A stretch of DNA of 64,000 nt, from NCBI GenBank assembly GCA_963575745.1, contig CAUYUJ010015010.1, positions 272,335-336,334 of the forward strand. Direction: 5' to 3'. This document shows positions 1,165 through 41,530 of the stretch, piece after piece (within the stretch, counting starts at the first letter, position 1; each line of letters begins with the position of its first letter). Under the pieces are notes generated by a model. The model worked only from the letters and a program-made list of their open reading frames with translations. It had not been told where the DNA came from and made no database searches. The translations under genes and the position numbers were made by a program. This stretch comes from Prorocentrum cordatum. Its lineage: Eukaryota; Sar; Dinophyceae; Prorocentrales; Prorocentraceae.

Positions 1165-3055
1165 CTAGGGTCGCTGGCCCGCTCGCGCCGGGCCCGCGGC
1201 GGCGACGGGGGCGGGGAGCGGGGCCTCCGAGGTGATCGCCCCGTCTGACATCGGGAAGATGTGCGTGTAGGGCGGGGGGCTGACGTAGACCAGCGCGATG
1301 AAGGCCGCCATGATGTAGCCGATGTGAATCGCCTTGTTGTGGAAACGCTTGGGGATCTCAAGCGCAGGCGCCGGGGCAGTCTTCTGCCGGCCAAGGCGCA
1401 TGTGCGCGGCGAAGATGGCCACGGCGCTGATGTAGAAGAGGCACCAGCCGAGGGACTGGAAGACCTCGAACTCCATGCGGTAGATGTCGCGGACGCTCGC
1501 CTTGACGCAGTCGGCGTCGTGGACCCAGAAGAGATTCAGCCTCGGCTCCAGCAGGGTGGCCACGTTGATTAGGCACGGTGGCGGGCACAGCTCGCACGGC
1601 TGCGCGTCGCCGAAGCGGAGCTGGAAAAAGTGGATGCTCATGAAGGTCAGCAGCGTGATGCCCGAGATCGCGAGGTTGAGCTTGCCAGAGGCGATGGTGT
1701 AGTTGATCGAGATGTCCCAGGCGCGCCTCAGGCCCACCGCTACGTGGAGCAGCGCGGCGAGCAGGATGTACTTCTCGACGATGTTGGCGTTGAAGCCGAA
1801 ACCCGCCCAGAAGAGGCGGACGTAGAAGTATCCATATCCGTTGAAGTCGTCCGGGCCGAGGAACGCGCGCAGGTTGCCGACTGCGTGGGTGATGATGAAG
1901 ATGAACGTGAACATTGCGGAGCGCGTCGGGCCAATGTGGTCGTTGGTGAACTGGAAGTTCTTCCGGCCGAAGATCGTGAAGAGGACCTCCTTCATGAAGG
2001 CGATGACCATGTAGACCAGAGCCCCGATGGGCCCCAGGACGCGCCCGCACTCGCCCATCCTCTTGTTGCGGTTGTCGTTCGCCAGCTTCCAATCGCGCGC
2101 GCCGTGCCCTCCCGCCGCGGCCGCCGTCGCTGCCGAGGCGCCGGCCGCCGCCGCCGGGGCCGCGCCGCCCCCTGCGCCGAGCGCGCCGGTGGCGGCGGCG
2201 GGGGCGCACTTCGGGATCACGTCCGGAGGATGGATCATGTTGAACTCCTCGGTGGCGCCCTCCCTGGCGAACGCGAGGATGGCCAGCTCGCCTCCGGGGC
2301 GCTGGCTCAGGAACGAGGTCGCGTCGAGCACCTCGCCAGCCGCGACCATCCAGCAGTCAGTCTTGCTGGCGTGCTTGGCCACCTCCTCCATGGAGTAGCC
2401 CTTGACGCCGCCCTTGCCGGCAGGCGCGGCGCCGCCCTTTGCCTTTTCCGCCCTCCGCGCCCTTGTTCATGCCATCCTCGTGCGAGCCGCCCGCGTTCTT
2501 GGGCGCCGTCACCTCGCCGGTGTGGCCTCCGCCAGAGAGGTCCTTGAGGCTCGCGGGCTTGCAGTCCGCGCCCAACGTGCACTTGGTCGCGGCGAGGCCC
2601 TCCGCGCGGCCGAACACCACGCTGTCCAGCAACGAATTGCCCCCTAAGCGATTGTTGCCATCGCCGGCCGCCTCCAGCCCCGGGATGGCCTTGCCGTTGG
2701 CGCCGACGCAGGCGGAGTCCGCGTCGATCTCGAGGCCGCCCATGCAGTAGTGGATCACTGGCAAGATGATGGCCGCGTAGAAGGGCTCGCTCTTCACCGC
2801 GGGGCCGTCGATCACGTTGTGGTTGAACTTCTTGCCCGAACCCGTCTTACCGCTGGCCTCGTCCCAAGACTTGCCGCTGTGGTATGCCGGGAATGAGCTG
2901 CCGTCCGGGCCCTTCTCGGTCTTCTTACCAGCCTCGAAATGCCCCTTGTGAGTCTGCTCCAGCACAGAAATGGGAACGCCCATGTCCTTAGCGAGCGCCT
3001 CGCCAGTCACGTAGAACTTCATGGCGCCGCGGCCAGTGCAGCGCTTGCAGCGCCA
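1165..3055 (-). pseudogene. Fumarate reductase-cytochrome b5-cytochrome b558 fusion, decayed copy 1
   Basis: This is the downstream relative of the intact 949-residue gene at 8,807-11,656. It begins only at the middle of the flavoprotein (WRCKRC..GRGAMKFY), so the FAD Rossmann half is absent. One extra T near 2,444-2,447 shifts the frame between the flavoprotein and the cytochrome b5 domain. The first b5 heme-ligand motif HPGG has become RPGG (around 2,300). A deletion replaces the conserved GLYAAGEVAGGVHGNNR stretch with GLEAAGDGNNR. The b558 part is still open to a stop at 1,165 and keeps its four intramembrane histidines. The frameshift, lost heme ligand and missing half together indicate a pseudogene. 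A shorter expressed protein from the 3' half cannot be excluded. Confidence 0.85.
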
Positions 3056-3522
3056 GCTGCATGCGCTCGAAGGCCCAGTCCAGGATCTCGCATGTGGACC
3101 TGTGCTGGACAGGTTCGTGGACCGCGTCAACGTGGTATACAGTTCAACGTCGTAGAAGTGAATTCGCCCGGCTTCGAGCCCCAGCAGGCCAGCGCGCCGC
3201 AACAAAAGAGCCAGCCTCCCGCCAACCAACGCTGTGGTAGGGGCGGATTCCGAGGGCACCCAGTCGCGCCGACCCGCAGGGGCCGCCGAGGCGGCGCAGG
3301 CCCAGGCGGCGAAAGCCGCCGAGGCGGCACGGGAACAAGCCGCCTGGAGCCACAACCAAAAATGACGATCAGGATGATGACGCACTGGTAGCGGTAGACT
3401 GGTAGCTTCGGCAACATCAAAACTTGGATCCACCCCCTCATACTGCGACGAACCACACTATATATAATCCAAAGGCCACCAAGCTCGCTTCTGAAATTCG
3501 AGACTACATATCGAAAGTCTCA

Positions 3523-7860: not shown

Positions 7861-10696
7861 GAAAGTGATTGGTCTGATGATGGTGGCAATGGAGGCGATT
7901 GTTGTTTCGGACATGTTGTTTGCTGTAGTTCTACCCTGGAATGCTTCGAACACCTATGAATTCGGAAAAGGGTTTCGACACGCGCGCGTGGCGGCGCACG
8001 CTTGTGGCCCGCACACTATTCTTTGACACGGGTTCGTGCACTGGGCGTATGCTAGATCAACGCTGATGCACAGCGTGGTGACATGATAATGCGGGTTCAG
8101 GGCGAACTGGCCAAACTGGAATGGTCCCCCCTTAATTACAGCAAGTGCATACCTAACGTGTTTGGCCTCAGATTTTGGTATGAGCGCTTGTGTGGACTTG
8201 GTGCATCTGTTGAATGGAATTCTCGAATGATTGTCACATGAGGTGCACGGGTGCGCGCATTTTATATTTTTTAAGTATGAGGGGGGGTTCGATACCAGTT
8301 GGGCTGGGATGGTATGACTTCATGTGGGGAGTGGGCGATAAGGCAGAATCGTGTTTAAACAGTACTATCCAAATTGGTACCGGTGAGTCCAGGGGTGAGA
8401 GGGTGACAGACTGTATCCTTATGTTGAAAAGGGAATGTATGTGGTGGAAGCTATGTGGTGCCAGCTCCGTGGTGCAGCTAGCGCACGGGGCGCCCGCTAG
8501 GCGCCCGCGAGCGGACGCAGGCCGCAACCAGGAGCAAATCTAGAATCGCCAACCAGCGCACGAGGCGCCCCAAGCGGCCACGGGCTGCCCCAGACAGGGA
8601 TCAGGCGAACAACCCAGCGAACGCAACGCCCATGAGGCGTTCACGGGCTGGGACGTGGCGGACACCTGGAAATACATGCCAGTTGCTCGGAAATCGCGAC
8701 GGAACTCCCAAGTGCAAGCGCTGCTTGGGGAACAGGGGCGAAGGAGAAGCACGATCGAGAGGCCGCAGAGTGCTGCGAAGCGCTGGGTCTTGGGTCGCTA
8801 GCCCGCTCACGCCGGGCCCGCGGCGGCGACGGGGACGGGGAGCGGGGCCTCTGGGGTGATCGCCCCGTCGGACATCGGGAAGATGTGCGTGTAGAGCGGG
8901 AAGCTGACGTAGACCAACGCGATGAAGGCCGTCATGATGTAGCCGATGTGAATCGCCTTGTTGTGGAAGCGCTTGGGGATCTCGAGCGCAGGCGCCGGGA
9001 CAGCCTTCTGCCAGCCAAGGCACATGTGCGTGGCGAAGATGGCCACGGCGCTGATGTAGAAGAGGCACCAGCCGAGGGACTGGAAGACCTCGAACTCCAT
9101 GCGGTAGATGTCGCGGACGCTCGCCTTGACGCAGTCGGCGTCGTGGACCCAGAAGAGATTCAGCCTCAGCTCCAGCAGGGTGGCCACGTTGATGAGGTAC
9201 GGTGGCGGGCACAGCTCGAACGGCTGCGTGTCGCCGAAGCGGAACTGGAAGAGGTGGATGCTCATGAAGGTCAGCAGCGTGATGCCCGAGATCGCGAGGT
9301 TGAGCTTGCCAGAGGCGATGGTGTAGTTGATCGAGATGTCCCAGGTGCGCTTCAGGCCCACCGCTACGTGGAGCAGCGCGGCGAGCAGGATGTACTCCTC
9401 CACGATGTTGGCGTTGAAGCCGAAGCCCGTCCAGTAGAGGCGGACGTAGAAGTATCCATATCCGTTGAAGTCGTCCGGGCCGAGGAACACGTGCAGGTTG
9501 CCGACTGCGTGGATGATGATGAAGATGAACATGAACATTGCGGAGCGCGTCAGGCCAATGCGGTCGTTGGTGAACTGGAAGTTCTTCTGGCCGAAGATCG
9601 TGAAGAGGACCTCCTTCATGAAGGCGATGACCATGTAGACCAGAGCCCCGATGGGCCCCGGGACGCGCCCGTACTCGCCCATCCTCTTGTTGCGGTTGTC
9701 GTTCGCCAACTTCCAGTCGCGCGCGCCGTGCTCTCCCGCCGCGGCCGCCGTCGCTGCCGGGGCGCCGGCCGCCGCCGCCGGGGCCGCGCCGCCCCCTGCG
9801 CCGAGCACGCCGATGGCGGCGTCGGGGGCGTACTTCGGGATCACGTCAGGAGGATGGATCATGTTGAACTCCTCGGTGGCGTCCTTCCCGGCGAACGTGA
9901 GGATGGCCAGCTCGCCTCCAGGGTGCTGGCTCAGGAACGAGGTCACGTCGAGCACCTCGCCAGCCACGACCACCCAGCAGTCAGTCTTGCTGGTGTGCTT
10001 GGCCACCTCCTCCATGGAGTAGCCCTTGACGCCGCCCTTGCCGGCGGGCGCGGCGCCGCCCTTTGCCTTTCCGCCCTCCGCGCCCTTGTTCATGCCATCC
10101 TCGTACGAGCCGCCCGCGTTCTTGGACGCCGTCACCTCGCCGGTGAGGCCTCCGCCAGAGAGGTCCTTGAGGCTCACGTGCTTGCAGTCCGCGCCCAACA
10201 TGTACTTGGTCGCGGCGAGGCCCGCCACGCGGCCGAACACCACGCAGTCCAGCAACGAATTGCCCCCCAAGCGATTGTTGCCGTGCACGCCGCCGGCGAC
10301 CTCGCCGGCCGCGTAGAGCCCCGGGATTGCCTTGCCGTTGGCGCCGACGCAGGCGGAGTCCGTGTCGATCTCGAGGCCGCCCATGCAGTAGTGTATCACT
10401 GGCGTGATGATGGCCACGTAGAAGGGCTCGCTCTTCACCGCGGGGCCGTCGATCACGTTGTGGTAGAACTTCTTGCCCGAACCAGTCTTACCGCTGGCCT
10501 CGTCCCAAGACTTACCGCTGGGGTAGGCCGGGAATGAGCCGCCGTCCGGGTCCTTCTCGGTCTTCTTAGCGGCCTCGAAATGCTCCTTGTGAGTCTGCTC
10601 CAGCACGGAAACGGGAACGCCCATGTCCTTGGCGAGCGCCTCGCCAGTCTCGTAAAACTTCATGACGCCGCGGCCGGTGTAATGCTTGCAGTGCCA
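7612..10696. repeat. Segmental duplication, copy B
   Basis: Collinear partner of 1-3,055. It contains the 3' two-thirds of the intact fumarate-reductase-like gene. Copy B continues beyond the WHCK codons (10,685-10,696) into the FAD domain, whereas copy A stops there. Confidence 0.85.
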
Positions 10697-11656
10697 CGCG
10701 ATCTCAGCGGACGCAGCCTTGTTCAAGCAGAGCCGGAAGGGCGGCTTGTTCTTCCACATCTCGCCTGTGACGTAGTCGCGGCGTCCCAGCTCGTTCGCGA
10801 AGCGCTTGCCGTTCGCATCCAGCACCAGACCGCCGACGCCACGGAGCGCCTCGGCAGCCAGGAACTTGATCTTGGCGTCGGGGTCGTCGGGCTTCACCAG
10901 GCCAGTGGGGTGCACCTGCACCCACTCAAGATCGATAGACTTGGCCCCGATCGCCTCGCCCATCTTGATGCCGTCGCCGGTGCAGTGCTCGCCGTTGGTG
11001 GTCGGCAGGTGCATCAGGTCGGGGCGGTACTGAGCCAGGAGGGAGTTGCTGGTGAAGTCCGCACCGAAGCCGCCGGTGGCGAGGATGACCGGCCCCATCT
11101 CGGAGAAAACCTGGCCTCCCTTCTCGTAGCTGCAGCCCACGCAGGAACTGCCGCTTGTGAGCAGCTTGGTGACCCTGGCCTTGGTGATGATGCGCGCCTT
11201 ATCCGTTTTCTCGGCGACCTTCTCGACCATCTGGATCAGGGCGTAGGTGATGGTCATCCCCGGGAAGCGCTCTGCTCCTCGGTGGGTTCGCGGCGCAGAG
11301 TGGCCGCCTAGGCGGGCGACCAGGGACAGGTCGAGGTTGAATTTCTCCACCAGCCAGTCGACATCGGCCCCGCTGTTGCCGCACAGGACCTTGACCAGCT
11401 CGGGCTTCTTGGCGCCACCCTTGAGGGTGTCGTTTGTGAACAGAGTGATGGTGTCATTGATACCCTTGTCCTTCTGAGTCTTCGTCTCCGCGCCATTGAT
11501 GCCGCTGGTGGCCTTGGTGGAGTTGCCCCCGCAGAAGGAGGACTTGTCGAGCAGCACGACCTTGCCATTGTTCTCCAGCACCGTGTTGGCCGCCGACATA
11601 CCACCCAGGCCACCGCCAACCACGATGGCCTGTCCAGACGGGAAAACACAAGCCAT
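8807..11656 (-). CDS. Single-chain FAD fumarate reductase-cytochrome b5-cytochrome b558 fusion, intact, 949 aa
   Basis: An uninterrupted, intron-free 949-residue frame. Residues 8-490 form a soluble-type (Osm1/Fcc3-like) fumarate reductase flavoprotein. It has the dinucleotide motif VVGGGLGGMSAAN at 12-24, QVHPTG at 247-252, RFANELGRRD at 285-294, HYCMGG at 422-427 and GNNRLGGNS at 459-467. By family analogy H249, R293, H422 and R462 are the catalytic quartet. Residues 546-617 are a cytochrome b5 domain with HPGG (H578) and a second candidate ligand, H601. After an Ala/Gly-rich linker, residues 664-921 contain about six membrane helices. H716, H763, H801 and H877 lie in successive helices, the diheme pattern of b558-type SdhC/FrdC anchors. 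No mitochondrial presequence is obvious. The ATG at 11,656 lies just before the FAD motif. Fumarate reduction at a membrane is inferred; succinate oxidation is also possible. Confidence 0.88.
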   Translation of the reverse strand: MACVFPSGQAIVVGGGLGGMSAANTVLENNGKVVLLDKSSFCGGNSTKATSGINGAETKTQKDKGINDTITLFTNDTLKGGAKKPELVKVLCGNSGADVDWLVEKFNLDLSLVARLGGHSAPRTHRGAERFPGMTITYALIQMVEKVAEKTDKARIITKARVTKLLTSGSSCVGCSYEKGGQVFSEMGPVILATGGFGADFTSNSLLAQYRPDLMHLPTTNGEHCTGDGIKMGEAIGAKSIDLEWVQVHPTGLVKPDDPDAKIKFLAAEALRGVGGLVLDANGKRFANELGRRDYVTGEMWKNKPPFRLCLNKAASAEIAWHCKHYTGRGVMKFYETGEALAKDMGVPVSVLEQTHKEHFEAAKKTEKDPDGGSFPAYPSGKSWDEASGKTGSGKKFYHNVIDGPAVKSEPFYVAIITPVIHYCMGGLEIDTDSACVGANGKAIPGLYAAGEVAGGVHGNNRLGGNSLLDCVVFGRVAGLAATKYMLGADCKHVSLKDLSGGGLTGEVTASKNAGGSYEDGMNKGAEGGKAKGGAAPAGKGGVKGYSMEEVAKHTSKTDCWVVVAGEVLDVTSFLSQHPGGELAILTFAGKDATEEFNMIHPPDVIPKYAPDAAIGVLGAGGGAAPAAAAGAPAATAAAAGEHGARDWKLANDNRNKRMGEYGRVPGPIGALVYMVIAFMKEVLFTIFGQKNFQFTNDRIGLTRSAMFMFIFIIIHAVGNLHVFLGPDDFNGYGYFYVRLYWTGFGFNANIVEEYILLAALLHVAVGLKRTWDISINYTIASGKLNLAISGITLLTFMSIHLFQFRFGDTQPFELCPPPYLINVATLLELRLNLFWVHDADCVKASVRDIYRMEFEVFQSLGWCLFYISAVAIFATHMCLGWQKAVPAPALEIPKRFHNKAIHIGYIMTAFIALVYVSFPLYTHIFPMSDGAITPEAPLPVPVAAAGPA

Positions 11657-11673
11657 GCTTCACGGAACCGACC

Positions 11674-11690
11674 CTAGAAGGGGCTGTAGA
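11674..11690 (-). promoter_or_regulatory. Candidate spliced-leader acceptor site upstream of the fusion gene
   Basis: On the minus strand a pyrimidine-rich CCCCTTCTAG lies 17 bases before the ATG at 11,656. Its AG (11,675-11,674) could accept the trans-spliced leader used on dinoflagellate mRNAs. This is a positional inference; no transcript is visible. Confidence 0.35.
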
Positions 11691-11719
11691 CTGTATACAA
11701 AAATGCGGGTGCAACCCGT

Positions 11720-11795
11720 GAAAAAATTCGCTGCAGACCCTTGCCAATGCTACAAAAGGGGCTTGATCCAAGATCATCATGCGAGGAAGAGGGGG
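11720..11795 (-). promoter_or_regulatory. Conserved upstream block shared with the triple-b5 gene
   Basis: The plus-strand order is GAAAAAATTCGCTGCAG, CCTTGCCAATGCTACA, GGGCTTGATCCAAG, GAGGAAGAGG. The same order with few changes lies at 41,444-41,530, upstream of the ATG at 41,415. Its retention ahead of two otherwise divergent paralogues suggests a promoter or 5' leader, or simply the common ancestral flank. Confidence 0.5.
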
Positions 11796-11919
11796 AGCAC
11801 GAGAAAGTAGAGATGTGACCAGTGGCGCAGACATTCCAGGGGACCAGGAAAGGTGAACAGATGAGGAGGATCACTAACATGTTCGCAAGCGTGGGCCCCA
11901 ACCATTGTGTTTCTAATGG

Positions 11920-12045
11920 GATATGTGGTGCAGTCGGTGTGGCGCAATATTTGAGGTACAATAGGTGGTGCAATTTATGTTGTTTGCTGTGCAATCTGTG
12001 TGGTACAATATATGTGGTGCAACTAATATTTGACCGTCTTGAAGC
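11920..12045. repeat. TATGTGGTGCAAT-type 14-15-mer repeats
   Basis: Short copies of (G)TATGTGGTGCAATNT occur here and again at 13,480-13,580, 16,805-17,035, 18,825-18,985, 19,205-19,365, 19,600-19,690 and 20,690-20,740. Complementary-strand copies lie at 22,540-22,690 and 36,440-36,690. It is a genome-wide short-unit repeat without coding capacity. The longest array is at 16,805-17,035. Confidence 0.8.
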
Positions 12046-12144
12046 TGTCCTCTCCACTGCTCGTGCAAACATCCCACCCTCCCACCCGCAACTTGGTCGC
12101 AAGACCTCTTCAGACAAGACCGTGACGCCACGTACCACATGACA

Positions 12145-12780
12145 CTTGGCCACGACACCGACGCCGACGACGACAGCGACAACGACGACGACGGCGCCGC
12201 CGACACCGACTACGACGACACCGACGACGTATCCAACGACTTCGACGACGGCAACGACGACACCGACGACGACGACGTCAACGACGCCGACGACGACGAC
12301 GACGACGGCGACTACGACGACACCGACGACGTCTCCGACAACTTCGACGACGACAACGACGCCGACGACGACGAAGACGACGACGACGTCGCCAACGAAG
12401 ACGACGACGAGGGAGGAGGAAGGACGACGACGGCGACAACGACGACAACGACGAGGGAGGAGGGAGGACGGCGACGACGCGAACGACGAAGAAGGACGGC
12501 GGCGCCGACGACGACAACGACGAGGGAGGAGGGAAGTTGACGATGACAACGGCGACGACGACGACGGCGATGAAATAGGAGGGACGACGACGAGACGCCG
12601 ACGACGGACGACGACGACGAGGGAGGAGGAGGAGGAAGGACGACCACGGCAACAACGACAACGGAAACGACCACGACGCCAAAGAGGACGACGACGACAA
12701 GACATAGGACGACGTAGGCGACGACGACGACGACGCGGGAGGAGGGAGGACGGCGACGACGACGACGACGACGCAAGAGC
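12145..12780. repeat. (CGA/GAC)n degenerate array 2
   Basis: Same composition and GAGGGAGGAGG interruptions as the array at 6,133. It is followed by the (CG)n-hairpin repeat (12,800-12,930) and a second copy of that repeat (13,100-13,230). Frames of 150-300 codons on both strands here are repeat artefacts. From 13,235 to 13,680 there is a T-rich stretch, a G-run and the 14-mer repeats, with no gene. Confidence 0.9.
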
Positions 12781-13684
12781 GCGCGCGCACGCTTTTGTTG
12801 AACATTTGTGTTGCGAAACCTTGTGTTTTTGTAGGTTTTTTGGACACGATTTTGAAATCCTTCCGAAACCGATGGGTTTTGAAAGTTTTCGGCATACGCG
12901 CGCGACGCCGCGCGCGTCTGCACTTCGTCCAATTTTTTGCAGAGGATTCTCGCGACGGCACACGCGCAAGGGCGTTCGACAGATTTCGGCATGCGCGCGC
13001 GCCAAGCCCGTTCGGTGGAATTTTGTGAAAATCTTGTGAAACCTATGGTTTTCCTCAGATTTCGCAAGAGCTCGCGCGGAAGCTTTTTTAGCAAATCAGT
13101 GTTGCGAAACCCTGTGTTTTTGTATGTGTTTTGGAAACTCGATTGCGGAATCCTTCCGGCACCGAAGGTTTTTGAAGGATTTCGGCATGCGCGCGCGACG
13201 ACGCGCGCGCGCGTGATCTTCGTCAATTTTTTTGCAAGGGATTCGTGAACAAATGTCATGTTAGAACAATAAATGTAACCGCATAGTTTTTTTACACAAA
13301 GGACCCTCAGGGGGGGGGCACCCGGTTGGCCTGGGACATTGTGATTTCATATTTCGGATGGACATGTGGTCATAATCATATATGATATACATACCCGAAA
13401 AGGGGGACCGATAACGCCGGCGGGGGGGGTAGATCCTATTCTGTTTTAAATATTGCAACGTACGCGGGGAATTGTAGGTGGGGCAATCTATGTGGTGCAG
13501 TCGATGGTGTGCAATCTGGGCGATGCAATGTATGACGTGCAATATATGTGGTGTAGTTGATGTGGTGTAACACTTTCTGTTCGCAATGAATTGTCCACTC
13601 CACTGCTCGCGCAAACATCCCACCCACCCACCCGCAACTTGGCTTGCAAAACCTCTTAAGACCGTGACGGTGGGTACCAAATGG

Positions 13685-13931
13685 CAATTGGCAACGACAG
13701 CGACGCCGACGACGACAGCGACAACGACGACGACGACGCTGCCGACAACGACTACGACGACACCGACGGCGTCTCCAACGACTTCGACGACGCCGACAAC
13801 GACGACGACGACGACGACGACGACACCGACGACGACGACGACGCCGACGCCGACGACGACGATGACAACGACGACGACGACGATGACGACCCCGACGACG
13901 ACGACAACGACGACGACGACGTCAACGACGC

Positions 13932-13967
<36 letters not shown>

Positions 13968-13970
13968 CGG

Positions 13971-14004
<34 letters not shown>

Positions 14005-14470
14005 AACGACGAGGCCGACGCCGACGACGACGACGAAGACGACGTCGCCAACGAAGACGACGACGAGGGAGGAGGGAGGACGACGACGGCGACAACGACG
14101 ACAACGACGACAACGACGAGGGAGGAGGGAGGACGGCGACGACGCGAATGACGAAGAAGGAGGAAGGACGGAGACGCCGACGACGACAACGACGAGAAAG
14201 GAGTGAAGACGACGACGACGACAACGACGACGACGACGGCGGTGAAATAGAAGGGACAACGACGAGACGCCGACGACGGACGACGACGACGACGAGGGAG
14301 GAGGAGGAGGAAGGATGACCACGGCGACAACGACGACGGAAACGACCACGACGCCAAAGAGGACGACGACGACGACGAACACGAGGAAAGACAGAGGACG
14401 ACGTGAGCGACGACGACGACGACGACGCGGGAGGAGGGAGGACGCCGACGACGACGACGACGCAAGAGCG
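13685..14470. repeat. (CGA/GAC)n degenerate array 3
   Basis: The longest of the three CGA arrays, nearly pure GAC over 13,690-14,040. It ends in the same sequence as the other two and in a (CG)n-hairpin copy at 14,500-14,625. Confidence 0.9.
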
Positions 14471-28486: not shown

Positions 28487-29049
28487 CTAGGCGAGTTCCT
28501 TGACCCCCCCGGGGACTGGGCAAGGGCGGCAATTGCTGTCTGCACCGGACGTGCACTTGCACGCGGCCTTGGCGGCGACGCGGCCGAAGACGACAAAATT
28601 CAACACAGCACCCCACCCGTGCGGTTGTTGCCGTGGAAGCCGCCGACCACCTCGCCCGCGGCGTAGAGCCCCGGGATGGCCTTGCCGCTCTTGCAGTCCA
28701 GCACTGCGGAGTCGACGTCCACCTCCAGGCCGCCCATGCAGTTGTGGATCACGGGGGTGATGATGGCGACGTAGAACGGCTGGGTCTTCACGGCGGAGCC
28801 TGGGATGATGTTGTGGCAGAACTTCTGGCCGGAGCCAATCTTGCCACTGGGCTCGCCCCAGGACTTGCCGCTGGGGTAGGCCGGGAAGGAGCCGCCGTCT
28901 GGGTCCTTCTCGGTCTGCTTCGCCGCCTGGTAGTGCAGCTCGGTCGCCCCCTCGAGCACAGACGCAGGGATCCCCATGTCCTTGGCGAGGGCCTCGCCGT
29001 TCTCGTAGAACTTCATGGCGCCGCGGCCCGCGTAGCGCTTGCAGTGCCA
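28487..29049 (-). pseudogene. Fumarate reductase flavoprotein copy 3, 3' part
   Basis: From the WHCK codons (29,049-29,038) the frame runs GRGAMKFYENGEALAKDMG, FPAYPSGKSWG, VIHNCMGGLEV and GLYAAGEVVGGFHGNNRTGG, closely matching residues 321-465 of the intact protein. At about 28,605-28,612 a single-base loss shifts the frame. The other frame resumes with NFVVFGRVAAKAACKC and ends at 28,487. There is no b5 or b558 domain after it, unlike the intact gene. It is the continuation of 34,623-35,590 across the LINE insertion. Confidence 0.85.
29038..29049 (-). repeat. Target-site duplication, 3' copy (TGGCACTGCAAG)
   Basis: This 12-bp word is identical to 34,623-34,634. Removing one copy and the intervening 5,573 bp restores the frame exactly (DEIR-WHCK-RYAGRG), matching the uninterrupted intact gene. 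Confidence 0.85.
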
Positions 29050-29060
29050 TGGAAAACCTC

Positions 29061-31406
29061 TCATAGGCCAAACTGCACGTGGAAAACACCCCCAAGAAAT
29101 GAAACGCGCGCTTGACCGAGTCGTCGCAAGTAAGATTGGATATCGGGTTCTTGGAAGTAAAGGCTATCCCGGCGACAACCCCGAGCAACGAGAAGTCGAT
29201 GACTCCATGCAGGCACACTCCGCGTGAAGATCGAGCCGAGGCTCGCGCGCTGCTCGGGGGCCGCCGTGGCGGCCACGCCCCACTCAGGCAGGCGCCCATG
29301 GCGCCGACCCTTGGCCCGAAGGGGGCCCGCGTGCATGCCGTCGGAGGCGAACTCGCGCACCAGCGCGACGGCCCGCCTGAGCCTTCCGCTCCGCCGCCTC
29401 TGTGTCGCCGACCATTTATTCGTCCGCGTTCCCGCCAGCTGTCTGCTTGTTTGTGTATTTTCCATTACCCTTTCCCTTGCCCTTGCCTCTGCCAGACATC
29501 CGCTGCGCGAGAGGACCGTCGCGGCTGTTTTGATGGGCGATGCCCAGGGACTCCGTTCTAATATTGCTGAGCTCGCTGGGGCCTCTGAGGAGCTCGACCT
29601 CCGCGACGTTGGACGGCATGAACTTCCAAACCCAGGTGCGCCCCTCTCGACGATTGGGGTGCTTGGAGGGCTTGAAACGAAAAAGCTGATCATCCAACTG
29701 CTCTGGTGTGAGGCCGTCAAGTTTACCCGGGATGCTGGCTTGATGGGGGCCCCTGAAGTACTTTGCGGATGAAGATGCGGAACGGGCTTCTTGAAGAGAA
29801 GACTGCGCTGTGATCCACATGCCTGGTCATACATGCTGGCGTCTTTGTCTGTGCTGAGCGCTTCTTTGTGGCTCTCTTTCCGATCTCGATCCCGGGCCCT
29901 CCAGGCGCCCCGCAGCTGGGGGACCTCGTTCTTGGCGGCCTCATCCTTGAAGAAGATTGCAAACGATGCCCGATCTTGAAGCTCGTGAAGATCCCGCTCA
30001 TGAGAAACCATCGCCCGCTCAATATTGCGAACCCGATCCTCGAGGCCGCCCGACGCGGCGGGGGGCGCGCGCCCCCTGCGCTCGCCACCGCGAGGGGACC
30101 CAAGACCCCGCAGCCACGTGCGCCCCGGCAGCCTCGAGCGCGGAAGGTATAGAGATGGGCGGGTGGAAAAGGGGGCGGAATAGGAGACAAACGCCGATCG
30201 GCACTGAGCGTCAATTCCGCACTGAGAGGCCGGCTTGGGCCCTGCGATGATGACAGACAATGACGTGAGCAGCGCATGCACGAACCGATGGGGATTGTTT
30301 GTGACAATGGGGACATCGAGCAGTCCATGTTTTCCTCTTCTACTCAGAATATTTTTGTTTGTTCGGTTCATACTAGACTTAAGCCATACTTCATAAGGGG
30401 CCGATGTGCACTTGTATCTGTGCATGGCAGAATGTATTTGTTTCAGGCAGTATGGGCAAGTTAGCTTGCGAGCACTCTTAGTCGTAGCAGTGCGTTTGAG
30501 GGTGCGATCATAACGAGTATGTTTCCTAGGTTTAGGCTTTCTGATGCGCTTGATAAGGCGGGTAAGGTCGGTGTTCAAGGTCACGGGCGGCGCCTGGTAA
30601 GTGATCTTCTCGGGCTCTCCTGGGGACCTCCCTCCTGCTTGTTTACGCCGTTGGCGTAGACGACGAAGAGGCTCAGGCTCGAGGGCTCGGGCTTCAGCTG
30701 CTTTTGCTCGCAGTCGTACGCGTTCGGCTGGAGGAGGGGTGGGGTGGGGTTCAGCAGCGGCAGCGAGACCTGCTGGAAGACGGATGCGTTCTGTTGGCGC
30801 CGCTAAGACTTGTGCTTGAGGTCGTTTGCCTCGGACGCGCAGGCGCGGCTGGGCCAGCCGCTGCCGCGCGCGCGAATATGCATGCTCTCCTTCTTGCGCG
30901 GCGAGCGGGCGGCCGTTGCAAAAGCGTCTGTGGCTCGACAGCGTCGCGCGCCGCAGTCCACAATCAGGGCGAGTGAACCTCTGCCTCGGTGGGTTTGTCA
31001 CCCCCTTGCAGCGCCGAAGATGAGCAGCGATATTGCATGCCTCGCTCGCGCAGCTCGGGCAGGCAGAATGGCCCGTGATGGCGCGGGTCGAAGACGCTGC
31101 CCGAACCTGATCGCGGAAAGCCTTGCGAGAGCCATGATGTCGATTTACCCGCGCATCTGCATCTAAACGTGCTCGGAGGTCACGAAGAAACTGCGTTTGT
31201 GCATTTTGCCACCAGTGGTCGCTGTGAGGAGAAAGAAAACCTGTCCAACAACATGCTGCCACACCTGAAGCCAAACGGTAGGGGCAGGCCTGAATGCGCC
31301 ATGACATCCTCCATCCTTTTCCTGAACATACGTGATTGGGGTGTAAGGCGAAGAGGTTTGCAGGGGTCGAACATGAAGCGGGGCGCAGCCCGCTCAAGTC
31401 GAGCAT
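29061..31406 (-). pseudogene. LINE-2 finger/coiled-coil frame, 781 codons
   Basis: One long frame joins three Cys/His fingers to the coiled-coil module, showing that they belong to one protein. The fingers are CPSCASEACNIAAHLRRC (about 31,070), FTRPDCGLRRATLSSHRRFC (about 30,940) and LTCPYCLKQIHSAMHRYKC (about 30,390-30,470). The module follows as VRNIERAMVSHERDLHELQD (about 30,000). After a frameshift near 29,800 the sister frame 29,820-29,416 continues with LTPEQLDDQLFRFKPSKHPN and ends in a GRGKGKGKG basic tail. The last codons of the 781-codon frame run through the 3' tail and are not coding. Confidence 0.6.
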
Positions 31407-31966
31407 CTGGTTGCCGTGCTAGATGTCCTGGGAGCCCCAGATAACTGCAGTGTCGACGGGCAACGTAGTATTCAATACCGTCCAATCCGAGTTCTGTTCT
31501 GAGATCAGTAGATGTAGCTCGTCCCTTCTTCCGTCGTAAAACTCCAGGCCGGATTTTTGGCATGGAACAAATAACGAATGCATTTATCCATGGATAATCG
31601 ATAACGGTGTGGGTCCTTTGCTGGAGAAATGTCGGAATTCGCATCCAGTAGTGCAACTGTTTCAAATGCTCTGCCTTTCTGCCTCAAGGTAAGACCTAAA
31701 TGGGGAAGACGTCCTTTCAACTCGAAACATAAATTGCCTGCTGCCTGTAGCCGTCTGACGGCGTCGTCCTCGCAGCCGCCGTCGAAGTCGATGCGGCGCC
31801 CCAAGCAACGCATTGATCTGGCCCGCTTGCGGTCAGTGGAAGAAAAAGGAAAAGTAAATGCAGAGGCGAGCCTATCAAACTTGTCGGAGTGCGCTGGCTG
31901 TCCTTGTTTCTCCAGGGCATGAATGACTAACTCTTCGATTCGAGACTGCTTTAACAATCTGCCCAC
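31180..31966 (-). pseudogene. RT post-palm fragments of LINE-2
   Basis: Two overlapping frames give RSMRCLGRRIDFDGGCEDDA, then RRLQAAGNLCFELKGRLPHLGL, then LGLDGIEYYVARRHCSYLGL and HLARQPDARLERAAPR. This parallels the YLG..I...G....RI..A...F..L and V.RR.L.YLGH.AR series after the FADD box in LINE RTs. It also parallels KKQLGYIGHFARYAPERVER of the element at 3-6 kb. Confidence 0.65.
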
Positions 31967-32807
31967 TCCAGGGGCATCATCAGCAACCCCAAGACTCGCG
32001 AGAGAGAAGGGATTTATGCATTGTCCGCTGTTTTCTGTTTGTTGCTCTGTTTTTGTTTCTTTCTTTTTTTCTCGGGGCGCCGTCGTGCAGGAGGGGCCGA
32101 CGGGGTGGTCGGCGGCGTAAGGAACCGAATCCCATCCTCACCGACGCGCGCTTTAAGTCGACGAAGTACGAGTTTATGCTGTAGATGAACGCCGCGCGGG
32201 ATGAGGGGCGCCCCTCTCGGAGTCCTCGACGAAGCTGGCATGGGCCGGGGTCTTCCGTTCAGAAGCGAATGACGTGCTCGGTGCCGCTGCGAAAGCCGTC
32301 CAGCCGTGCAGTCATATCTGGGGGTGCTCCGGGCTGTCCAAGGATAGCCCAGGCGACAGACTGTGGGACATTCGGATAGGCTTTCTCAATATCTGGCAGC
32401 GTGAAAGTGATAGCGTTCTCCAACTCGCCCTCAGGAAGTGACGCATCGTGGGCCGCCGATTCGACCGCAGCGCGAAGTTGGACAGCATCATCAGTTGTCC
32501 GTCGGTAAGTTCTGAAGCCTCATCATTGTTATGGCTCCAGGAGATGTTGATCCTCTGCCCAGGCTGGAAGCCAGCGTGCACATGTGCGCGCGATGATCGG
32601 AGACGGCATGGTCAATCAAGAGATGCCACTATACTTCTTCAGATCGCCTCTCGAACCTCTCCGCTTTCATGATGCAATGACAGCACTACGATGAAGATCT
32701 CGATCCCTCTCGCTAGGATCAGCGTTCCAAAGACGCAATATCAAATCCCAAAGCCGACCTGCGCACTGGGGGCCGGCCGACTTCCAGAGGTCGATGGTGA
32801 TTCGTCG

Positions 32808-33086
32808 TCACCGCTCGCGGACTCGCGCATGCCTCTGATAGCATCCGCGCATTCGTCGCAATCGGGGAAGAAGCTGAAGACGGTGTCGGTCCCTCCCCGA
32901 GGTTTCGTCCTGGATGCGATCTAGCGGGGCGTCGTTGGGATGACGTGCCAGCTGAAGGAAATGTTCGCGTGCCTGTTGTGCTGAGAACGGCGCGGGCCCA
33001 TGTGCGTCCTGGTCATTTAGCCGCGCTCCGAGATCGCGGAGATGCCGGTAACAACGACCAAGATCAGGATCTCGCGTTTTCCGCAT
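32808..33086 (-). pseudogene. LINE pre-RT region fragment
   Basis: The frame reads CYRHLRDLGARLNDQDAHGP followed by FSAQQAREHFLQLARHPNDA. It resembles the linker before the RT domain, where a REHF motif is common. Between 33,090 and 33,890 the frames are broken by G-runs (33,360-33,382; 33,602-33,620). Between 32,800 and 31,970 short frames may contain RT pieces, but no motif is clear. Confidence 0.45.
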
Positions 33087-33889
33087 TCATGAACAACTTC
33101 TGCTACGGGCTGGCCTCGCCATCGTCGTTGATCTCGTCGATCGCGCCGCTTGAGTAGATGATGATGGTCCATAGCTATCTTCCGATCTCCAGGGTTCGAG
33201 GGGCGACGCGCTGCGTACCGCGAAATATGTAGCGACTTTTCCTGAGACCGTCATGCTGCTCCATTGCGGGCAAGCGCAGGCATATCATCGCGTCGAGTTC
33301 GGCGGCCGACGAAATCATCTGCTGCTTCGCGAGGGCGCGCTGAGAGCTTAGTCCAGGAGGGGGGGGAGGGGGGGGGGGGGGGCGGGGCGAGCTCGGAACC
33401 TGAAGAGCCTGTTGTGCTGCGCCTGGAGCTCATCTGTATTCGGTCCGTGAGGCCGACGCCGCGTCGCCAGGGCCTCGAAACAGATCTCGGCGCGGCTTGC
33501 TGCGGGGGCGGAGCTCCTGGGCAGAGCCTGGTCCCCGCTGCGTCCGAGTGGCCTTCGGAGATGTGGTCGCATCCGAACGTAAGGTCCGTGCTCCAAGATG
33601 CTGGGGGGGGGGGGGGGGGTCCGCGCGCGCGCCCTGGGAGATGCAGAACAAGACTTTGGGCAACCTGCTCACCATCAGGAAGGGCATGGGTGCGGAGCTC
33701 GCGGAACGAGTGAGGTATGCGTCTGGCTTGTTGGCGGGAAAACCGTCGAATCCGTAATCATACTTGAGGGTCGGATGGTGCCATGTCGCGCGTCGTTTGG
33801 AAGGTGGCCTGGAATCGATGTGGTGCAGGTTGTTCTCCACGACAAAATCGAGAATGTGCTGGGCGTGCTTGGGGGGTGGCCTGGGAAGC

Positions 33890-34540
33890 TTATCTTTTCA
33901 ATGTGCTCGGTGGAGGTCTCTGATGCGGGTTGGCGCTCAAGAGGGCACCTACCATGGGAGCCAGTACATCGCGTGAAAGTCGTATCGGTGTTGGCGACCT
34001 TGAACGTGTAGGTGGAACATGTCGGTCGTCAACCTTGTGAACTGGATTGGGCGTCGTATCTAATCTAGCAAGTTGGGGATCCAGCAAGAAAACATCGACC
34101 CGCGCCGATGAGGGCGAACTCCTCCAGACCAGGTACGTAGTGTGCTCGAGAAGAGCGATATCGCTCACAATGATGATGCCCCACTTCTGCTTGCGCGGTA
34201 TCATCAACGAGCCGTGGATCTTAGAACGTGAGCTTGGGCGAAGCGGATCTAGAGCTTGGCAACTCCCTGGCGCTAGGCGGAGCTGTTGGGTAAGATGGGC
34301 CGCGCGGCGCGCCCGGTGCCGCTGACGTGTAGTTGCACTTAATTTCAAAGGGGTTATTGGAATAAGCCTCCATGGTCGGTTCGACTTCTCGTGCGACGTG
34401 AGGTTATCTGGGGTGCGTCGATCAGCGATGCGTTGACCACGGAGGTTGAAAGACGCGGGTAGCGGGGGGCCTCCTCGAAGCACTTCCCGCACCCTATACG
34501 CATGAGGCGTCGAATTCTCTCTCAGCGTTGGCCGAACCAC
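33890..34540 (-). pseudogene. LINE endonuclease-like (EEP fold) C-terminal fragment
   Basis: The frame contains WGIIIVSDIALLEHTTYLVW, then ARVDVFLLDPQLARLD, then VHKVDDRHVPPTRSRS. A hydrophobic strand, a DVFLLDP strand and a DxxxP-type end fit the last part of LINE apurinic-type endonucleases, where SDHxP closes the active site. This is tentative because only the C-terminal third is legible. Confidence 0.45.
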
Positions 34541-34622
34541 AACCTCAGTATCGTCGGGCAGCTAGCTCAGGTCGTGAGTCTGTTTCCCTCCCATACCTGT
34601 AGGATGTGCCGATCCAGGAAGG

Positions 34623-34634
34623 CTTGCAGTGCCA
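34623..34634 (-). repeat. Target-site duplication, 5' copy (TGGCACTGCAAG)
   Basis: Identical to 29,038-29,049 and located directly after the codons for DEIR. Confidence 0.85.
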
Positions 34635-35590
34635 CCTAATCTCGTCGGAGGCCGCTTTGTTCAGGCAGAGGCGGAAAGGCGGCTTGTTCTTCCACATCTC
34701 GCCAGTGACGTAGTCCTGGCGACCCAGCTCGTTTGCGAAACGCTTGCCGTTGGCGTCGAACACCAGCCCGCCCACGCCGCGCAGAGCCTCTGCAGCGAGG
34801 AACTTGATCTTCGCATCGGGGTCGTCTGGCTTCGCCAGTCCTTTGGGGTGCACCTGGGCCCACTCCAGGTCGATGGTCCGCGCGCCGATTTCCTCGCCCA
34901 TCTTGATACCGTCGCTGGTGCAATGCTCGCCGTTGGTGGTAGGCAGATGGAGCAGGTCGGGGCGGTGCTGCGCCAGCACCGAATTCGTGGTGAAGTCGGC
35001 GCCGAAGCCACCGTTGGCCAAGATCACGGGGCCGTGCTCTTTGAACTCCTCACCGCTCTTGGAGTAGATCGAGCCCACTACGGAAAGCTTGCCCCCTGAC
35101 GTGTTGGTCAGCAGCTGGTTGGCGCAAGCGTTGGTGATGATGCGGGCTCGGTCCGTGTTCTCTGCAACCTTCTCAAGCATCTGAATCAGGGCGTAGGTAA
35201 TGGTCATACCTTGGAAGCGCTCCGCGCCACCGTGGGTGCGCGGCGCCGAGTGGCCACCGAGGCGCGCCACAAGAGACAGATCCAGATCGAACTTGTCGAC
35301 GAGCCAATCCACGTTTGCTCCACTGCTTTAGCCGAAAATATTGGCGAGGTCAGGGCGCTTGGCCCCGCTCTTCATGGTGTCGTTGGTGACGAGGTCGCGG
35401 GAATCTTGGATTCCCTTCGCCTTCTGTGTCGTCGTCTCCGCGCAAGTGGTGCCACTGGTTGCCTTTGTCGAATTGCCGCCGCAGAAAGAAAACTAATCTT
35501 TCAACACGACCTTCCCGCCGCACTCGAGAACCGTGTTGGATGCTGACACGCCTGCCAAACCGCGACGATGGCCTGGTATACCATCGCCAT
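34623..35590 (-). pseudogene. Fumarate reductase flavoprotein copy 3, 5' part
   Basis: Homologous to residues 15-324 of the intact protein. The Rossmann motif region is frame-shifted (GLAGVSASNTVLECGG), and a stop follows KVVLKD (about 35,493). A second stop, TAA, replaces the LCGNSG segment (about 35,326). The frame is then open from 35,312 and carries TITYALIQM, LPTTNGEHCT and RFANELGRQDYV. QVHPTG has become QVHPKG, changing the threonine next to the active-site histidine. It ends at the LINE junction. Two stops, a frameshift and an active-site change make it a pseudogene. Confidence 0.9.
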
Positions 35591-38994: not shown

Positions 38995-39270
<276 letters not shown>

Positions 39271-39378: not shown

Positions 39379-40464
39379 TCAGCGCTCGACGCGGCCGGAG
39401 TTGATGTCCTTCTCGTAGCCGTTGAACGGGACCGTGCAGAGACAGTACAGCGGGAACGAGATGTATACGAGGCCGACCGCAATGAAGATTGCGTAGCCGT
39501 ACTTGGTCACCAATGGGATGTGCTGATTCGGGATGCCGAAAGCCGACGCTGGGGCGAGCTTCTTCCAGCCGAGGCAACCGTGGACCATGAACACGACCAC
39601 CGCGAACATGTAGAAGAGGCTGAGAGCCTTGGAATCGTTGAAGAGCTTGAACTCGAGCGCGTAGATGTCGCGAACCCCCACTGGCTGGATCGAGGCGTCC
39701 TTCGTCCAGAAGAGGTCGAGCTCGAAGACGCCCCAGAAATTGATGAGGTAGGGAGGGGGGCGGATCATGTACGGCCCGAACTGGTCGGTGTCGCCGAAAC
39801 GGAACTGGAACAAGTGAACGGTCATGAAGGTGAGCAGGACCAGGCCCGTGCAGGCGAGGTCGAGTGCTCGCGGATTGTTCTTGAACATGCCGAGGGACGT
39901 GTCCCAGGTGCGCTGGAGGCCCGCGAGCACGTGCAGGAGGACCGAGAGCAGGATGTACTCCTCCACGATGTTGGCGGGGAGCCCGAAGCCAGTCCAGTAC
40001 GGGCGCGCGTAGAAGTAGCCGTAGCCGTTGAAGTCGTCGGGCCTCCTCCTCCTCCTCCCTCTCCTTCTCCTCCTCCTCCTCCTTTCCCTCCTCCTCCTTT
40101 CCTTCCTCCTCCTTCTCCTCCTCCTCCTCCTCCTCCCCCTCCTCCTCCTCCCCCTCTTCATTCCCCTCCGCGCCGTCGCCGCGTCTTCTCCCGCCCCAGC
40201 TTGTCAGTTGGCCGTTGAAGTCATCGGGCCGACGGCATGGATGACGATGAACAGGACCAGCAAGATCGCGCTGCGGGTGAGGCCAACGCGGTCGCCAGTT
40301 ATCTTGAAGTTCTTGTTGACGAAGATCGTCGCGGCGACTTCGTAGAGGACGGCGCTCAGCAAGTACCAAGCGGCGTAGAAGTAGGCCCGCACGTTGATCA
40401 AGAACACGCCCGGGTTGCTGTCCATGACGCCTTCGCGCCAATTGTCCCGGCCGTCCAGGTGCCC
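39379..40464 (-). CDS. Cytochrome b558-type membrane domain, copy 3 (interrupted)
   Basis: Two coding segments. Segment 1 (about 40,461-40,230) reads HLDGRDNWREGV...FLINVRAYFYAAWYLLSAVL...GLTRSAILLVLFIVIHAVG. Segment 2 (about 40,043-39,379) reads DDFNGYGYFYARPYWTGFGL, VEEYILLSVLLHVLAGL, MTVHLFQFRFGDT, VVVFMVHGCLGW and ends SGRVER. All four candidate heme histidines (HAV, LLH, TVH, MVH) are kept. The segments are separated by a GGA-rich insert bounded by a 20-bp near-perfect direct repeat. Residues NLHVFLG are missing and the splice sites are ambiguous. A TGA at 40,465 separates this frame from the triple-b5 frame in the same phase. It is either a separate gene, one gene with a nonsense change, or an assembly error. 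The conserved residues argue against long-dead sequence. Confidence 0.65.
40024..40230 (-). repeat. Direct-repeat-bounded insert in the b558 gene
   Basis: GGCCCGAYGACTTCAACGGC occurs at 40,211-40,230 and 40,024-40,043 (one mismatch) on the minus strand and encodes the PDDFNG region. The 167 bp between consist mostly of (GGAGGA)n. Direct repeats at both ends are a known habit of dinoflagellate introns. The 187-bp period is not a multiple of three, so simple loss of one repeat does not restore frame. A GA-AG splice would restore it. Confidence 0.6.
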
Positions 40465-41415
40465 TCAAGCCTGGTGGTTGGCGATCTTGCCGCCCTTGTC
40501 CAGGATGACCGGCTTGCCGCCCTTCTTGGGCGCCTTCTCCTTCTTCTTCTTCGCGCCGCCGCCGCTGCCGACGTCGCCGATGACGGCGTCTGGCGCGTAT
40601 TTGCCGACCACGTCGGGCGGGTGGATCATGTCAAACTCCGCCGTGGCGTCCTTGCCTGCGAACGTGAGGATCGCCAGCTCGCCCCCCGGGTGCTGCGACA
40701 GGAAGGAGGTCACGTCGAGCACCTTTCCGCCGAGGATGACCCAGCAATCATCCTTGGTGACGTGTTTCGCCACCTCCTCCGGGCTGTACCCGCCGCCACC
40801 ACCGACAGCCTCCTCCTCATCCTCATCCGAGTCGTCGTCATCGTCCGAATCATCCTTCTCGTCGGCACCGCCGCCTGCCCCAAGCTTGCCAATGGCGGCG
40901 TCAGGGGCGTACTTCGGGATCACGTCCGGAGGGTGGATCATGTTGAACTCCTCGGTGGCATCCTTACCGGCGAACGTGAGGATGGCCAGCTCGCCTCCAG
41001 GGTGCTGGCTAAGGAACGAGGTCACGTCGAGCACCTCACCAGCCACGACCACCCAGCAATCGGTCTTGGTGGTGTGCTTGGCCACCTCCGCCATGGTGAG
41101 GCCGCCGCCACCGCCGCCACCGCCGCCAGACTTGATCTTCTTCTCCTTCTTCTCCTTCTTTGGCTTGTCATCTCCGCCGCCTGCCCCAAGTTTGCCAATG
41201 GCGGCGTCCGGGGCGTACTTCGGGATCACGTCTGGAGGGTGGATCATGTTGAATTCCTCGGTGGCATCCTTACTGGCGAACGTGAGGATGGCCAGCTCGC
41301 CTCCAGGGTGCTGGCTAAGGAACGAGGTCACGTCGAGCACCTCACCAGCCACGACTACCCAGCAATCGGTCTTGGTGGTGTGCTTGGCCACCTCCGCCAT
41401 GGTGATGGGAGCCAT
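40465..41415 (-). CDS. Triple tandem cytochrome b5-domain protein, 316 aa
   Basis: Starts at ATG 41,415 (MAPITMAEVAKHTTKTDCWVV). Three b5 domains follow, at about residues 6-83, 105-182 and 208-285. Each has a DCWV(V/I) strand, LSQHPGGE with the first heme histidine, and MIHPPDV with a candidate second histidine. Domains 1 and 2 are nearly identical at the DNA level, a recent internal duplication. The linkers are opposite in charge: KKEKKEKKIKSGGG after domain 1 and DDSDDDDDSDEDEEE after domain 2. A Lys-rich stretch follows domain 3 before the TGA at 40,465. The b558 domain continues in the same phase beyond that stop. Its role is inferred to be electron transfer to or from the adjacent diheme membrane domain. 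Confidence 0.8.
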   Translation of the reverse strand: MAPITMAEVAKHTTKTDCWVVVAGEVLDVTSFLSQHPGGELAILTFASKDATEEFNMIHPPDVIPKYAPDAAIGKLGAGGGDDKPKKEKKEKKIKSGGGGGGGGGLTMAEVAKHTTKTDCWVVVAGEVLDVTSFLSQHPGGELAILTFAGKDATEEFNMIHPPDVIPKYAPDAAIGKLGAGGGADEKDDSDDDDDSDEDEEEAVGGGGGYSPEEVAKHVTKDDCWVILGGKVLDVTSFLSQHPGGELAILTFAGKDATAEFDMIHPPDVVGKYAPDAVIGDVGSGGGAKKKKEKAPKKGGKPVILDKGGKIANHQA

Positions 41416-41443
41416 GGTTGAATAGTTGTCAGGTTCAGGCCCT

Positions 41444-41530
41444 GGAAAAAATCAGCTATACACCTTTGCCAGTGCTGCAGAATCGGGCTTGAATCAAACG
41501 AATCGAAGAGGAATCGGATGAGGAAGAGGA
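41444..41530 (-). promoter_or_regulatory. Conserved upstream block shared with the intact fusion gene
   Basis: Plus-strand words GGAAAAAATCAGCTATA, CCTTTGCCAGTGCTGCA, CGGGCTTGAATCAAA and GAGGAAGAGG match 11,720-11,795 in order and spacing. Here the block ends 29 bases before the ATG. This supports 41,415 as the true gene start. Confidence 0.5.

Follow-up and report, generated by a model that had tools for sequence, protein, structure and literature searches.

A three-part gene on the minus strand of the window

We analysed a stretch of 64,000 nucleotides of the dinoflagellate Prorocentrum cordatum (contig CAUYUJ010015010.1, positions 272,335 to 336,334; hereafter the window). A reading made from the sequence alone had singled out in it an intact frame of 949 residues joining a fumarate reductase that binds flavin adenine dinucleotide (FAD), a cytochrome b5 domain and a membrane domain. 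This frame was recovered as a single uninterrupted open reading frame (ORF) of 949 codons at 8807-11656 on the minus strand, and its architecture suggests membrane fumarate reduction without the usual iron-sulfur subunit. The gene and its parts are as follows; the support includes ratios of nonsynonymous to synonymous divergence (dN/dS).

8807..11656, minus strand: complete three-part gene, FAD domain, cytochrome b5 and b558-type membrane domain (ORF, domain scans, dN/dS)
11660..11662, minus strand: in-frame TGA, two codons 5' of the ATG
10253..11629, minus strand: FAD_binding_2/flavocytochrome c type fumarate reductase domain, residues 10-468 (Pfam, TIGR01813, Osm1)
10019..10195, minus strand: linker 1, Gly/Ala-rich, residues 488-546 (59 residues)
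9803..10018, minus strand: cytochrome b5 domain, residues 547-618 (Pfam)
9653..9802, minus strand: linker 2, Ala/Gly-rich, residues 619-668 (50 residues)
9590..9652, minus strand: additional hydrophobic segment (TM0), residues 669-689, in which E682 and T686 are conserved (70-sequence alignment)
8915..9541, minus strand: membrane domain, b558 SdhC-like, residues 706-914 (TIGR02046; hhalign to bacterial SdhC)
9509..9511, minus strand: codon of H716, SdhC heme ligand position 1 (hhalign, conservation)
9368..9370, minus strand: codon of H763, SdhC heme ligand position 2 (hhalign, conservation)
9254..9256, minus strand: codon of H801, SdhC heme ligand position 3 (hhalign, conservation)
9026..9028, minus strand: codon of H877, SdhC heme ligand position 4 (hhalign, conservation)

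As the sequence-only reading had claimed, no iron-sulfur domain was found in the chain, either among all nine Pfam families matched, among the best 25 of 70 NCBIfam families or in the scans of the C terminus. The three-cluster iron-sulfur part of SdhB/FrdB type that characterizes complex II is therefore not seen in this protein.

Flavoprotein and cytochrome b5 domains

Both soluble domains that had been proposed were detected by Pfam. FAD_binding_2 covers residues 10-468 (E = 3.4e-73), and the flavoprotein scores 354.7 bits against the NCBIfam family TIGR01813 (flavocytochrome c), which exceeds the curated cut-off of 285.45. Its nearest solved relative is yeast Osm1 (PDB 5glg; E = 4.4e-85). 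The four residues put forward as catalytic, H249, R293, H422 and R462, align together with E269 and R272 with their equivalents in Osm1 and in Shewanella fumarate reductase chains; opposite R293, chain 5glg has Arg, whereas chain 6ku6 has Ala. The single residues are assigned the roles that their equivalents have in fumarate reduction by these enzymes. Conservation was measured in 53 full-length sequences, i.e., the query and those of the best 120 matches that are 880 residues or longer and carry the N-terminal motif: H249, H422 and R462 are present in 53/53 and R293 in 52/53, the last sequence having a gap. E269 and R272 are likewise retained in 52 or 53 of the 53.

The covalent attachment of FAD that is typical of SdhA in complex II was not recognized in the flavoprotein. 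In a gapped pairwise alignment, the region aligned with the covalent-FAD histidine of Streptomyces SdhA contains no histidine, and N45, considered in the comparison of this site, is kept in 53/53 sequences. SdhA-type models were far under their cut-offs among the NCBIfam families listed. The accessible part of PMC6242907 describes soluble fumarate reductases that bind FAD non-covalently as irreversible. Because of the active-site set, the missing covalent-FAD histidine and this irreversibility, we class the flavoprotein as a probable fumarate reductase and not as a succinate dehydrogenase. The candidate assignment to the covalent-FAD succinate dehydrogenases was rejected on the basis of the TIGR01813-type flavoprotein and the absence of that histidine.

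The cytochrome b5 domain, which had been recognized from its HPGG motif, is covered by Pfam Cyt-b5 at residues 547-618 (E = 1.2e-22). Its presumed axial heme ligands, H578 and H601, are found in 51/53 and 50/53 sequences, with gaps in the remainder.

A membrane domain related to b558-type SdhC

In NCBIfam, the last 310 residues have a match to a single family, TIGR02046 (b558 SdhC), at E = 1e-7. This is the family to which the sequence-only reading had pointed, and the match itself stands, but its 31.8 bits remain under the curated cut-off of 96. A Pfam scan of the same residues gave nothing significant. When eight diverse members were scanned individually, TIGR02046 was matched by 8/8 (E up to 1; best E = 3.8e-12); Pfam found Sdh_cyt in one of these eight membrane domains, and only at E = 0.82. 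A phmmer search of the membrane domain alone against the PDB returned no match, and a profile of the domain retrieved a single weak match, to the b558 SdhC chain 9lay_C (E = 0.0038 for the whole sequence; i-Evalue = 0.13 for the best domain).

Scanning prokaryote genomes with the eight-member alignment yielded 81 pattern-matching stretches, five of which encode a relative, and all five are from Streptomyces. The one Streptomyces SdhC that was checked (L008) scores 234 bits against TIGR02046; after it come an SdhA gene and a frame with, as judged by eye, ferredoxin-like cysteine motifs. Aligning the eight members with three Streptomyces SdhCs by hhalign gave a probability of 96.4% (E = 1e-9) and paired H716, H763, H801 and H877 with H55, H104, H151 and H196 of the Streptomyces protein, which we take to be heme ligands in the b558 family. 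Four aligned ligand positions thus lie in four successive helices, in line with the initial claim, but the number of invariant histidines is five rather than four: H716, H722, H763, H801 and H877 are each present in 53/53 sequences. H716, H763, H801 and H877 are also kept in 120/120 sequences of a second set; both sets were gathered via the membrane domain itself, so that part of this conservation is built in. By these sequence comparisons, the membrane domain is a distant but clear relative of bacterial b558-type SdhC.

Topology and N terminus

Five to six hydrophobic segments were identified between residues 669 and 925, and the protein departs in this from TIGR01813-type enzymes, which are soluble only. 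Mean net charge was computed over successive stretches in 70 sequences: it is -2.8 before TM0, +2.3 between TM0 and the first histidine-bearing helix, and onward from this helix -0.9, +2.6, -1.8 and +3.3, with -0.4 at the C terminus. According to the positive-inside rule, this alternation places H763 and H877 near the membrane side from which the histidine-helix bundle begins, with H716, H722 and H801 near the other. These two depths would resemble the arrangement of proximal and distal hemes in diheme complex II. TM0 is itself well conserved (E682 in 65/70 and T686 in 70/70). As 660 N-terminal residues that lack a signal sequence would hardly be expected to pass through a membrane, we infer that TM0 is in-plane or re-entrant rather than spanning.

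The protein begins near the Rossmann strand, and no presequence was seen. Its glycine-rich motif could be placed by script in 55 of the 70 sequences and is preceded by exactly nine residues in 43 of these 55. The in-frame TGA two codons 5' of the ATG precludes an N-terminal extension by direct read-through in this copy; there is a small chance of a spliced upstream exon whose acceptor falls inside the few bases preceding the ATG. In one relative (P0010), the N terminus is extended by about 80 residues, and a precomputed match to PF26933 is given for this protein. Given that no presequence was seen, the inner mitochondrial membrane should not be assumed as the location, and a cytosolic position of the soluble part is probable.

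A cytosolic soluble part is one of the arguments for the main rival explanation, in which the enzyme is driven by reduced nicotinamide adenine dinucleotide (phosphate), NAD(P)H: cytosolic NADH-cytochrome b5 reductase would reduce the b5 domain, which would pass electrons to FAD and fumarate, and the membrane domain would be an anchor or a second point of electron entry or exit. It is well established that b5 domains are normally reduced by b5 reductases. The glycosomal enzyme of trypanosomes also requires a b5-reductase domain of its own for NADH-fumarate reductase activity, according to the accessible part of PMC8065229. A plain anchor, however, is not expected to hold ligand histidines invariant (53/53 and 120/120, in sets collected through the membrane domain), and we consider this explanation fairly unlikely.

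Copies in the genome, split forms and selection

We searched the P. cordatum genome (4.13 Gb, 21,875 contigs) with the protein, which gave 60 matches; because 48 of 1119 candidates were scored, the counts below are lower bounds. There are at least three intact full-length copies, namely the gene at 8807-11656 and two on contig C1943. At locus L012, a single ORF of 1190 codons, seen up to the end of the locus, combines the flavoprotein with three b5 domains and a membrane domain that has diverged further. Contig C1943 also carries three identical flavoprotein-only genes of 1533 bases in tandem (L032, 62500-69000; spacing 1918 bases), whose identity could partly be an assembly effect. On the same strand, upstream of these genes, lies an intact gene of 624 codons with its own ATG that encodes three b5 domains and the membrane domain, and a second stand-alone gene of this kind is found on contig C14161. 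Intact separate flavoprotein and b5-membrane genes are thus located within a few kilobases of each other. The coexistence of fused and split forms suggests that the parts work together (Rosetta-stone argument).

Selection was estimated by the Nei-Gojobori method, in which gene conversion among recent copies is not accounted for. Between the gene and the two other full-length copies, we counted 43 synonymous and 4 nonsynonymous differences (dN/dS = 0.029) and 43 and 12 (0.088), respectively. Low values were also obtained for the flavoprotein relative to L012, L016 and L018 (0.104, 0.064 and 0.128). The membrane pieces gave 0.154 (L026), 0.168 (L027) and 0.152 and 0.37 (L023), and the third b5 domain and membrane part of L012 gave 0.44. 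For partial copies the values were 0.44 (L014), 0.81 (L015), 0.81 (L017) and 0.90 and 0.58 (L021), and short second stretches gave 0.34 (L016, 68 codons) and 0.80 (L026, 52 codons).

Three broken copies were found in the window:

1186..3070, minus strand: relic copy A, residues 316-949 in two frames, HPGG changed to RPGG, 5' part not found
28538..35561, minus strand: broken copy C, flavoprotein part only, two stops
39379..41451, minus strand: broken copy D, three b5 domains and membrane domain, no flavoprotein part

The order in the window (b5-membrane part, flavoprotein-only part, full gene) is the order on contig C1943. Copy A looks neutral (dN/dS = 1.09 for residues 530-949 and 0.52 for residues 316-545), in contrast to broken copies C (0.14, 0.26 and 0.38) and D (0.56 and 0.49), presumably because the latter two were constrained before they broke. 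Although the broken copies might suggest a gene-model or assembly artefact, a chimaera or a dead fusion, there is next to no chance of this, considering the three intact full-length copies, their dN/dS of 0.029 and 0.088, and the presence of all three motifs in one chain in 132 of 156 proteins (see below). We therefore rejected this candidate.

The two stand-alone b5-membrane genes give a dN/dS of 0.049 between themselves and of 0.084 and 0.070 relative to L012. That intact genes without a flavoprotein are under selection is compatible with an alternative in which the b5-diheme unit exports electrons across the membrane, from the cytosolic side to an acceptor or quinone on the far side, with the flavoprotein serving as the donor or acting on a substrate other than fumarate. 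With histidines at two depths, two hemes could bridge the membrane. The flavoprotein has nevertheless retained its fumarate active site, and soluble enzymes of its class are described as irreversible (PMC6242907, accessible part), which makes electron export distinctly improbable.

Elsewhere in the window, we found no tRNA, and a search for a spliced-leader relic was negative. A scan for bacterial promoters at 11600-12100 identified none, and the corresponding terminator scan gave two terminator-like sites against 0.4 expected, which has little meaning in a eukaryote. Simple-repeat tracts at about 38700-39400 and 12100-14600 create long low-complexity ORFs on both strands.

Distribution across dinoflagellates

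We searched protein databases with residues 620-949 (best 120 of 182 matches) and with the Amoebophrya-like protein P0103 (best 120 of 179). The top match to residues 620-949 is a P. cordatum protein at 99%. Among the matches listed, most of which are unnamed proteins from environmental or transcriptome sources, all readable organism names are those of dinoflagellates: Prorocentrum, Symbiodinium, Cladocopium, Durusdinium, Effrenium, Polarella, Amphidinium, Amoebophrya, Togula and Scrippsiella (taxonomy checked for the last three). The architecture is likely restricted to dinoflagellates. Flavoprotein, b5 and membrane motifs occur in one chain in 132 of 156 distinct proteins (P0001-P0156), and many of the remaining 24 are shorter pieces. 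Long frames from transcriptome sources in EukProt/MMETSP (P0010, P0079, P0089 and P0101) span all three parts. Absence of the architecture from every other dinoflagellate dataset had been named in advance as a result that would refute the claim, and this refutation fails, since other dinoflagellates have the architecture.

The number of b5 domains in the family ranges from one to three, with two HPGG motifs in 27 of the 53 full-length sequences and one in 26. In a profile search, 22 of the best 120 of 1245 proteins start within a few residues of the b5 domain, and some of these are maybe truncated. Relatives carry database names such as 'osm1', 'CYB2' and 'succinate dehydrogenaase', the last from Amphidinium. 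From these names, and from a Heterocapsa record labelled 'fumarate reductase', it is evident that such genes were noticed earlier. Three studies, each seen in its accessible part, offer candidate links to the gene only: an Oxyrrhis study of expressed sequence tags (ESTs) with 36 ESTs in seven clusters best matching the Heterocapsa 'fumarate reductase' (PMC3942190), a study of retrogenes whose list includes a 'hypothetical fumarate reductase' (PMC12014239), and a proteome study of Scrippsiella in which a 'fumarate reductase' is up 1.59-fold (PMC13028991).

Complex II genes in the same genome

SDHB-like genes are encoded in the P. cordatum genome: three matches to Fer2_3 were found, and frames with iron-sulfur cysteine motifs were seen. 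The C-terminal family of SDHA gave three exon-like matches, whose frames were judged to be SDHA by eye; this Pfam family presumably also occurs in aspartate oxidases. Because SDHB-like and SDHA-like genes are also encoded, the single-chain enzyme is an addition to complex II, not its replacement.

The database name given to the Amphidinium relative raises the alternative of a one-piece succinate dehydrogenase (succinate:quinone oxidoreductase). It would accord with the report that complex II of Amoebophrya seemingly lacks the SDHC and SDHD anchors (PMC7789003), but in PMC12005148 the same complex is described as complete; the accessible parts of these two sources disagree on this point, and both report that Amoebophrya lacks complex I. 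The flavoprotein of flavocytochrome c/Osm1 type, the missing covalent-FAD histidine and the SDHA-like and SDHB-like genes of P. cordatum also argue against a succinate dehydrogenase, and we regard this alternative as very improbable.

Proposed electron path

Our preferred reading, to which we give an even chance, is that the gene encodes an iron-sulfur-free, membrane-anchored, single-chain fumarate reductase of dinoflagellates, in which electrons pass from a quinol-type donor through diheme b and b5 to non-covalent FAD. The C-terminal b558 SdhC-type domain would bind two hemes b, one near the side of the soluble domains (H763 and H877) and one on the far side (H716, or H722, and H801). Electrons would enter this diheme domain from a donor in the membrane, for which a quinol is the likeliest candidate, and move on to a cytochrome b5 bead swinging on flexible linkers, which would deliver them to the non-covalently bound FAD, where fumarate would be reduced to succinate by the mechanism of Osm1/Fcc3. 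Cytochrome b5 would then take the role of the iron-sulfur subunit of complex II. We see b5 as a mobile shuttle because of the Gly/Ala-rich linkers of 59 and 50 residues and the variation in b5 number from one to three. Of the chains that involve all conserved parts, the path from membrane donor to diheme b, b5, FAD and fumarate is the simplest. The architecture, residue conservation, selection, the range of the family and its split and fused forms are seen in the sequences; heme loading, topology, donor, direction and substrate turnover are inferred.

Several points weigh against the quinol-driven reading. The TIGR02046 score falls short of the curated cut-off, and the invariance of the histidines is partly due to how the sets were collected. 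TM0 is about as hydrophobic as some other segments, and, by the positive-inside rule, the charges of -2.8 before it and +2.3 after it would agree with a TM0 that crosses the membrane, which would put the soluble part on the opposite side. The separate b5-membrane genes indicate that the membrane part may serve other acceptors. Finally, the transfer of electrons from ubiquinol to fumarate is uphill under standard conditions, and ubiquinol is a poor thermodynamic donor. A low-potential quinone in dinoflagellates found no support in the literature accessible to us, where the match for rhodoquinone, rquA and dinoflagellates concerned Blastocystis.

More tentatively, and with less than even confidence, we propose a modular quinol-to-b5 oxidoreductase, in which a diheme SdhC of bacterial type, acquired by capture, is combined with one to three b5 domains. 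It would be wired to an Osm1-type flavoprotein, either fused or separate, and would maybe feed other b5-dependent enzymes, thereby forming a new iron-sulfur-free branch of fumarate respiration in a membrane distinct from the inner mitochondrial one.

If the preferred reading is correct, the combination of a conserved fumarate site and a complex II-type membrane part without iron-sulfur would break the division between soluble and membrane enzymes and constitute a compact model for coupling a membrane donor to fumarate. It would also provide a testable route of redox balance in darkness or low oxygen for dinoflagellates, a group that includes coral symbionts, bloom-forming species and parasitic Amoebophrya.

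Comparison with known systems

That no described enzyme has this architecture had been suggested from the sequence alone. Our literature search, which was thin on subscription papers, likewise found no description of a single-chain FAD-b5-SdhC architecture and no paper pairing 'fumarate reductase' with 'cytochrome b5 domain'. A review of complex II (2023; PMC10238741) lists, in its accessible part, six classes and soluble homologues, none with the architecture of the P. cordatum protein. According to the same review, the soluble domain of most complex II enzymes consists of two subunits, to which one to three membrane subunits are added, whereas soluble homologues do not perform the quinone half-reaction. 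What is new here is also that the number of b5 domains varies from one to three and that the parts exist as separate intact genes in one genome.

The P. cordatum protein has its flavoprotein domain and active-site residues in common with yeast Osm1/Frd1 (PDB 5glg), which binds FAD non-covalently and, according to the accessible part of PMC6242907, is soluble and without a heme domain, unlike the present protein with its b5 and membrane domains. Another multidomain single-chain fumarate reductase of protists is trypanosome FRDg (ApbE-FRD-Cytb5R), which is driven by NADH via its b5-reductase domain; neither b5 nor a membrane cytochrome is mentioned in the accessible part of PMC8065229. Flavocytochrome c3 (Fcc3) of Shewanella likewise has a heme domain fused to a flavoprotein of the same kind. 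Fcc3 is soluble and its four-heme domain is N-terminal, whereas b5 and the membrane domain are C-terminal in P. cordatum.

The b558-type complex II (diheme SdhC, SdhA and SdhB) possesses a related membrane domain with four ligand histidine positions in common. The P. cordatum protein differs from it in being one polypeptide, in the family of its flavoprotein and in that no SdhB-like part was found. Wolinella quinol:fumarate reductase and Bacillus succinate:quinone reductase are types of this complex. Finally, flavocytochrome b2 and other fusions join b5 to a flavoenzyme as the P. cordatum protein does, and similarity in the b5 domain was found. These fusions embody the principle of the b5 shuttle in soluble enzymes with a different flavoprotein fold.

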